Under the pieces are notes generated by a model, which searched no databases, was not told the origin of the DNA, and worked only from the letters and a program-made list of their open reading frames with translations. This document shows positions 19,938-21,533 of a stretch of 39,732 nt of DNA, in pieces. Source of the stretch: Verrucomicrobiota bacterium (GTDB lineage: Bacteria; Verrucomicrobiota; Verrucomicrobiia; Limisphaerales; VHCN01); the NCBI GenBank assembly GCA_016871675.1, contig VHCN01000026.1, positions 1 to 39,732 of the forward strand. The letters run 5' to 3'. The first letter of the stretch is position 1. The number at the start of each line of letters is the position of its first letter. The translations under genes and the position numbers were made by a program.

Positions 19938-20252
19938 ATGAGTTCATTTTTTGAACGCCCGGACACCAAGGGCAGGTATTCGGGCAAGAACAACACGCGG
20001 TGGATGAGTTTCATCTGCAACGCGCCGGCGGCGCAATCGGTGTCCGTGGTCGGCGACTTCAACGATTGGGATGCCGCGGCAAACCCGATGGAGCGTCAGG
20101 TGGACGGCAACTGGACCGCAATGGCGCAACTGAACCACGGGCATCATCTTTACGTGTTCATGGTGGATGGCAAGCCGGTGCTCGACCCGCGAGCGCAAGG
20201 TGTCGGGCGCAATGGGAAGAACGAGCGCGTCTCGCTGGTGCTGGTCAGCTGA
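19938..20252 (+). CDS. Stand-alone CBM48/AMPK-type glycogen-binding domain protein
   Basis: 104 residues, a single early-set domain. The glucan-binding signature VSVVGDFNDWDAAANPM (residues 35-51) and NGHHLYVFMVDGKPVLDPRA-like ending (here HGHHLYVFMVDGKPVLDP) match the CBM48/isoamylase N-terminal family. There is no catalytic domain and no signal peptide, so it is a cytoplasmic protein that probably binds glycogen or another alpha-glucan, or recruits a partner to it. No glycogen enzyme is in the window. The gene starts 128 bases from the divergent cyclase gene. The start is fixed by MSSFFERPDTKGRYSGKNN, with no alternative upstream. No ribosome site is seen. Confidence 0.88.
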   Translation: MSSFFERPDTKGRYSGKNNTRWMSFICNAPAAQSVSVVGDFNDWDAAANPMERQVDGNWTAMAQLNHGHHLYVFMVDGKPVLDPRAQGVGRNGKNERVSLVLVS

Positions 20253-20335
20253 TCAAGCACCCGGGCTGGAGTCCGCGTGGCCCAAGGCGGGTGTGGCGGG
20301 TTGTGTTAGGGCATTGTAAATTCCCAAGAATGGCG

Positions 20336-20363
20336 TTGACAAAGCCGACTCGGGTCCTAGCTT
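20336..20363 (+). promoter_or_regulatory. Promoter of the candidate ncRNA
   Basis: A perfect TTGACA (20336-20341), a 16-base spacer, and TAGCTT (20358-20363). No open reading frame with coding character follows on this strand; a structured segment and an intrinsic terminator do. Confidence 0.5.
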
Positions 20364-20368
20364 ACCCT

Positions 20369-20518
20369 TACTTTTTGGCTCAGGTTTTTGATTCGGGTGG
20401 CAGCACGTTTCTTCAGAGGGGTTCCCCACCCCCACCTCCTTGGCGTCTGCTGCCCGAATCGCTCTTGGGCACTTTAGTGCCGGATTGGGCGGGCTCCGCG
20501 GAGTCCGCCCTTTTCTTT
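20369..20518 (+). ncRNA. Candidate structured non-coding RNA, about 150 nt, family not recognised
   Basis: The segment lies between a sigma70-like promoter and an intrinsic terminator in a 310-base gene-free stretch. It folds by eye into a long rod: GCTCAGG (20378-20384) pairs with CTTGGGC (20464-20470, two G-U pairs), GATTCGG (20390-20396) with CCGAATC (20454-20460), and GCAGCA (20400-20405) with TGCTGC (20448-20453). Internal loops separate these stems, and the apex is C/G-rich. A small GGCAC-TTTA-GTGCC hairpin (20468-20481) overlaps the outer stem and could be an alternative fold. It lacks the SRP RNA apical consensus. A 6S-like rod shape is possible but not shown by sequence. It converges on the response-regulator gene. 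Confidence 0.5.
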
Positions 20519-20520
20519 CT
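20487..20520 (+). terminator. Intrinsic terminator of the candidate ncRNA
   Basis: The stem GGGCGGGCTCC / GGAGTCCGCCC (20487-20497 with 20500-20510, one G-T wobble, innermost pairs open) is followed by TTTTCTTTCT. The T-tract is on the plus-strand side only, so it serves plus-strand transcription. Confidence 0.75.
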
Positions 20521-20562: not shown

Positions 20563-21252
20563 TCAGGCGAGCTTGGGGGCGGGGGAAGCACCGGGTGTCG
20601 GGGCTGCGGGCTGTGCGCCAGCCTCTGGCATTGCTGCGGGTGCGGATTTGAGGGACTCGCACTCCGGGCAGGTGAAATGGTGCCGATTCACGTCCTCCTC
20701 GCCGAAGCTGATGGAGACTTTGAGCTTGTGCCAGTTGCCGTCGAGGTCGCGGATCTTCTTGCAGGATTCGCACCGTGGGACGAATTGGAGCGCCTGCCCG
20801 AGAAGCCGGAGCGCGGTTTCATACTGCGCAAGTTGCCGGCGCAGTTCCGCCTGCACCTTTGCGGCGCGCGCGCCGGCCAAAATCCGGGCGCGAAGCTCAT
20901 CGGGATGGAACGGCTTGCTGAGAAAATCATCCGCTCCCGCCCCGAGGCCCTCGACAATCTGCGCCTTGCCGGACTTTGCCGTGAGAATGAGGATGTGCAG
21001 CGTGGAACTGTGGAGTTTTGACCGGATTTTCCGGCAAAGCTCGAACCCGTTCATGCCTTGGAGCATGTAGTCCACCACGGCCACACGGATCTCATCGTCG
21101 TGCACGAGGATGTCGAATGCCTTGTCGGCCTCGGACGCGGTCACCGTCCGGAATCCCCACTGGTCCAGCATGGTCTCGAGCTTGCCGAGCATGCCGGGGT
21201 CGTCGTCCAACAGGAGGACCTTCGGCCGGTCAGGAACGGTCACAATTGCCAT
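20563..21252 (-). CDS. Response regulator with C-terminal Cys4 (CxxC...CxxC) domain
   Basis: 229 residues from ATG 21252 (MAIVTVPDRPKVLLLDDD). The receiver domain spans about 10-127: acidic pair D16-D18, phosphoacceptor D61 (VAVVDYMLQGMNG), T91 and K113 (LSKPFHPDEL), all intact. A helical linker (128-158) leads to a small domain with CESCKKIRDLDGNWHKL (C161, C164) and FTCPEC (C195, C198). This resembles the CxxCKKIRD...CPxC module found after PAS/receiver domains in multi-sensor signalling proteins, probably zinc-binding. A Pro/Ala tail ends the protein. There is no DNA-binding or enzymatic output domain and no histidine kinase nearby. The in-frame extension upstream of 21252 is Arg/Pro-rich and judged non-coding. 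Confidence 0.9.
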   Translation of the reverse strand: MAIVTVPDRPKVLLLDDDPGMLGKLETMLDQWGFRTVTASEADKAFDILVHDDEIRVAVVDYMLQGMNGFELCRKIRSKLHSSTLHILILTAKSGKAQIVEGLGAGADDFLSKPFHPDELRARILAGARAAKVQAELRRQLAQYETALRLLGQALQFVPRCESCKKIRDLDGNWHKLKVSISFGEEDVNRHHFTCPECESLKSAPAAMPEAGAQPAAPTPGASPAPKLA

Positions 21253-21533
21253 GGTCAGGATTCGGTTGTGTGCTGACGGACGGCCCGCCCGCCCGGGGAC
21301 GCACAAGCCCGCCTGCGCATCCCGTCGACGCCTGAAGCCGGGGTTGGCGGGCGATTGCCGCGCACGACCATGCGCGGGGGGCGCGGGTGCATCCATCGCC
21401 GCCGCATCAAACCCGCGAAAGGTTCGAGCTTCCCCCCCTCCGCGTCAATCACGGAACGAATCCGCCCGCGCTCGCGTTTTCGCACGCTGATGCTTGCGTC
21501 CGCAGGGGAGCTTCGGCCAACTTTCGGCTCACG

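Follow-up and report, generated by a model that had tools for sequence, protein, structure and literature searches.

The window, by which we mean the whole 39,732-nucleotide stretch of Verrucomicrobiota DNA analyzed here, carries a putative small RNA gene on the plus strand at 20336-20520. Its upstream neighbor is a CBM48 gene (19938-20252, plus strand), which ends 84 bases before the -35 box, and its downstream neighbor is a response regulator gene (20563-21396, minus strand) convergent to it. A preliminary description of this DNA had proposed an orphan structured noncoding RNA with its own promoter and terminator, and the solitary position that it noted was found; since the next gene is convergent, a leader of a downstream gene is ruled out. 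The proposed promoter, TTGACA-N16-TAGCTT, is present in the sequence, with the -35 box at 20336-20341 and the -10 box at 20358-20363. Of 147 copies from relatives, 126 have the same TTGAC at a comparable distance, mostly 33-54 nt upstream of the stem, and the 16-nt spacer is the commonest spacing in the family (33/48). Because its -10 box matches only three of the six consensus letters, the window promoter is missing from the list of a generic promoter scan. On the minus strand, a promoter-like TTGTCA-N18-TACAAT (20313-20342) overlaps the -35 box of the RNA and faces the 3' end of the CBM48 gene. With a presumed start 7 nt past the -10 box, the transcript would begin with a short leader (20370-20389), of which 20378-20384 pairs with 20464-20470 in the fold. 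It would end at an intrinsic terminator (20487-20519) that agrees with the stem and T-tract described before: a hairpin at 20487-20510, with eight G-C pairs in a 10-pair stem, followed by TTTTCTTTCT.

The region 20366-20520 folds at -74.9 kcal/mol on the plus strand, compared with -51.7 +/- 3.9 kcal/mol for 200 shuffled sequences (z = -6.0, 0/200 as good); the reverse strand folds more weakly (z = -3.1). The non-coding, rod-like fold of the preliminary description thus holds. Its three co-linear stems exist as well, but their base pairs had been under-counted, as 7, 7 and 6 bp. The rod comprises a lower stem of 7 bp (20378-20384/20464-20470), a main stem of 14 bp (20390-20403/20447-20460) that extends into 20405-20407/20444-20446, and an inner hairpin of 5 bp (20418-20422/20428-20432). 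The inner hairpin reads GGGGU-UCCCC-ACCCC (20418-20432), and one of its positions, pair 39:48 of the alignment A1 described below, was seen as G-C, A-U and C-G. Directly after it, at 20433-20441, stands CACCUCCUU, an unpaired copy of the 3' tail of 16S rRNA, the anti-Shine-Dalgarno (anti-SD) sequence. This exposed copy is the key feature of the RNA, and it had been overlooked. The covariance model and the covariation delimit a conserved core of 71 nt (20390-20460), made of a long outer stem, an internal loop and the inner hairpin; the window core scored 99.5 bits against covariance model R1 (E = 1.5e-18 in the genome). No T-run follows the main stem in the window copy, which has the extra lower stem and the separate terminator instead. 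The conserved RNA is therefore 20390-20460 only, and the lower stem and separate terminator are particular to this copy.

Known RNA classes were then considered. The Rfam covariance search that had been proposed gave no match at the window locus, at the gathering threshold or at a relaxed threshold (to E 10), and ARAGORN found neither a tRNA nor a tmRNA there; SRP RNA and tmRNA, which had already failed to match by consensus, are thereby ruled out. Five diverged relatives (L164, L250, L252, L254 and L269) had no Rfam match above the gathering score. Near-hits to the L20 leader, suhB and a sobemovirus element were rejected; all lay far under their gathering scores and fall on the GC-rich terminator. 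A 6S-like role had been suggested from shape, and the RNA does resemble 6S RNA (RF00013) in being a rod-like orphan. It differs in being under half the model length and in matching no Rfam family, and the window genome has a separate 6S RNA on another contig (G000:C1:65061-65241) that scored 58.2 bits, over the cut-off of 46.4 bits. Above-cut-off 6S RNAs were likewise present in 47 of 58 relatives in addition to copies of the window-type RNA. The 6S identity is therefore ruled out.

The RNA core was found by covariance model search in 168 of 196 Limisphaerales genomes, and in 104 of the 111 good ones, at one to eleven copies per genome. Model hits with E above about 0.01 per genome were discarded, as they lie in unrelated, coding-like DNA. 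When one genome from each family of the order was searched with blastn, 57 of the 58 matched, mostly over about 75 bases at 85-97% identity, a few of them giving weak matches only. The covariance model also recovered diverged forms, from further orders within the class and from other classes of Verrucomicrobiota. Among named GTDB records, those containing the 20-mer CCCCACCTCCTTGGCGTCTG belong to Verrucomicrobia subdivision 3, Pedosphaera or Limisphaerales, apart from a few metagenome-assembled genomes (MAGs). Five MAGs titled Klebsiella pneumoniae, Akkermansia muciniphila or Desulfomonile tiedjei (L065, L046, L057, L094 and L096) bear the Limisphaerales-type RNA, and their titles look misassigned. 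A tRNA-Asp(GTC) lies shortly downstream on the same strand in about 29 of 60 loci (L003, L009, L014 and L044 among them) and is absent at the window copy. A tRNA-Asp leader or T-box was rejected: the tRNA seems to be served by a TTGAC promoter of its own, and the window copy has no such tRNA.

Next, we aligned 76 distinct copies from relatives with MAFFT (alignment A1). In the outer stem and inner hairpin, 98.5% of the cells were paired, and structures slid along the alignment paired only 39-46%. Double changes occurred at 12 pairs and in 120 cells, while shuffled alignments averaged 23 and none of 500 reached the real value. The compensatory changes that had been suggested as a check are thus present in relatives and decisive, and covariation was seen again on a phylum-wide alignment fitted to the model. 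A -35 box was recognized in 48 of 71 Limisphaerales-type sequences, and in these the predicted start fell at the base of the stem (median -0.5 nt). The stem leads into a T-run in 112 of 140 sequences; a typical gene thus consists of one hairpin, which doubles as the terminator. The features that define the new family, namely a covarying outer stem, a covarying inner hairpin and an invariant (A)CCUCCUUG, were all found. Order-wide conservation, covariation, promoter position and the T-run bear out the orphan structured RNA with its own signals, and we consider it almost certain that the locus belongs to an RNA family that is conserved and uncatalogued. The copy number, which reaches 11 in some genomes (e.g., G019), and a stem followed by a T-run, as in a terminator, might suggest a repeated DNA element, terminator-like or mobile, that makes no functional RNA; tandem copies were also seen (L004:1502-1694 and L182:1501-1710). 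Such an element is very improbable. The RNA is a single copy in the window genome and in many others, a promoter stands at a fixed distance, presence is near-universal, the unpaired loop is invariant, and no match was found among phages, plasmids and viral contigs.

The most conserved feature of the family is the unpaired ACCUCCUUG rather than the stem. It shares ACCUCCUU with the 3' tail of 16S rRNA, a match that is CACCUCCUU in Limisphaerales, and the 16S tail of the window genome itself is intact (...GGATCACCTCCTTTC). Across 136 sequences, the predicted mean unpaired probability was 0.92 for the motif and 0.37 for the whole RNA. Outside Limisphaerales, the outer stem is wholly different in sequence and length and the inner hairpin varies with compensation, while ACCUCCUUG is kept; it was 100% invariant in 49/49 aligned sequences, to be read with the ascertainment that the GTDB records with the 20-mer were found by a pattern containing the motif and that model hits favor it. 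The loci found by blastn, independently of the motif pattern (L003-L031), all carry it. A few diverged members have a shortened or altered motif (CUCCUUG, UCCUUG or a substitution). In L255, L265 and L269, from other orders of the class, the inner hairpin is missing and only UCUCCUUGG or UUCCUUGG is kept. The invariance of the motif could instead reflect protein binding: the RNA would be a sponge or scaffold, a putative RNA-binding protein would hold its C-rich loop, and the resemblance to the 16S tail would be incidental. Within Limisphaerales, the opposite side of the internal loop, UUUCUUCAG, is near-invariant too, which simple antisense pairing would not require. Outside the order, however, the UUUCUUCAG side changes along with the stems and ACCUCCUUG stays exact, and the motif is that of the 16S rRNA tail itself. 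We regard the sponge or scaffold as unlikely.

If the motif acts by pairing, its natural partners would be SD sites, and the hosts hardly use them. On the Limisphaerales loci L042-L160 and the window, SD 4-mers were not enriched upstream of starts (14.6% of 527 genes vs. 14.0% in shuffled sequences) despite the intact 16S tail; the same script gave 59% vs. 9% for E. coli, in a comparison in which starts were called crudely and the control was a single 49-kb stretch. A published survey also lists SD-scarce Verrucomicrobia (PMC10783764). Ordinary targets are therefore few, which counts against an antisense reading. The full complement AAGGAGGTG was found before ATG 202 times in 56 genomes, compared with 132 for the reversed pattern; with so modest an excess, the target search by this pattern was set aside. 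The gene rpsU, which encodes protein bS21, was present in 55 of 56 relatives. Its leaders (29 relatives) paired with the 16S tail at a median of -14.0 kcal/mol, against a gene median of -4.9, and with the loop of the RNA at a median of -9.8 kcal/mol, against -5.5. As the latter value is close to that of the best-pairing 10% of ordinary genes (-10.1) and the 16S tail pairs better, rpsU does not stand out and is a candidate only. An extended SD sequence, AGGANGTGA, occurs in 21 of the 29 leaders. In both their strong extended SD and their frequent TTG or GTG starts, these leaders (L282-L311; L342 in the window genome) resemble those of Bacteroidota. Given the scarcity of SD sites and the strong rpsU site, the RNA would have a small regulon or act on the pocket that binds the tail.

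The second of these options is that the RNA mimics the 16S tail on the ribosome, competing for the bS21/bS18/bS6 pocket, or for some other factor that binds the tail, and thereby changing the freedom of the tail to read SD sites. The hosts combine an intact tail, near-absent SD use and a strong rpsU site, a pattern that in Bacteroidota has been linked to sequestration of the tail and to autoregulation by bS21 (PMC9976891), and rpsU is nearly universal in the relatives. Also, bS21 has been reported in another noncoding RNA complex, OLE (PMC12054373). The protein contact is hypothetical here, and other classes, with upstream regions that look SD-rich (median -6.2 kcal/mol vs. -5.9 in E. coli), carry the RNA as well. 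We hold ribosome mimicry to be a minority possibility. The broader proposal of a phylum-wide decoy of the 16S tail that governs access to the anti-SD, through bS21/bS18/bS6 or a few SD-bearing messages such as rpsU, seems to us similarly doubtful; if true, bacteria that largely gave up SD initiation would have an additional, new level of translational control.

Conservation, structure, promoter position, the exposure and invariance of the motif and the lack of a recognizable Hfq are what was observed here. The Hfq family was absent in 30/30 relatives, with five control genomes positive. The exposed motif, the parallel with the ar14/cuckoo RNAs set out below and the missing Hfq favor an Hfq-independent, trans-acting antisense anti-SD RNA. 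We take this as the best reading, at about an even chance of being right, and consider that the RNA probably controls protein synthesis through pairing with messages. The gene would yield a product of about 72-145 nt that folds into one long hairpin, with a stem that usually doubles as terminator. The hairpin would display CACCUCCUU, identical to the 16S tail, unpaired, and the motif would pair with G/A-rich, SD-like sites at the start of a few messages, blocking ribosome binding and repressing them without Hfq. With its strong SD site in SD-poor hosts, rpsU would be the first candidate target. The puzzle is that the hosts hardly use SD sites, yet retain an RNA in which the anti-SD sequence is the sole invariant feature. 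One review counts eight annotated small RNA families for the entire Planctomycetes-Verrucomicrobia-Chlamydiae group (PMC9029176), and our literature search found no description of the motif; to that list would be added an RNA that is present almost throughout a large environmental order, has relatives elsewhere in the phylum and offers an obvious, testable active site.

Two known systems offer comparisons. In Bacteroidota, bS21 autoregulates via an extended SD on rpsU, through ribosomes that lack bS21 and free their tail (PMC9976891). The SD-poor genomes, the intact 16S tail and the strong rpsU site are alike; no small RNA has been described in that system, which works through the bS21-less ribosomes. 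The nearer parallel is with the ar14/cuckoo small RNAs of Alphaproteobacteria (NfeR1, SmelA075). The rhizobial ar14 RNAs have an ultraconserved anti-SD motif in unpaired loops, with highly different stems (PMC10746234), and ribosome binding sites are the site of action of the group (PMC10746234, PMC3927594). Likewise, the motif of the window RNA is predicted to be unpaired, the stems diverge freely and the promoter is its own, of sigma70 type. NfeR1 is reported to act independently of Hfq (PMC3927594), and no Hfq was found in the hosts of the window RNA. The ar14/cuckoo RNAs, however, carry CCUCCUCCC in each of three or four hairpins, whereas the window RNA has one hairpin with CACCUCCUU; it belongs to another phylum, no sequence relation was found, and its hosts have few SD sites. 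Working like ar14 is thus not membership in ar14: the window RNA has one hairpin rather than three and a different motif.
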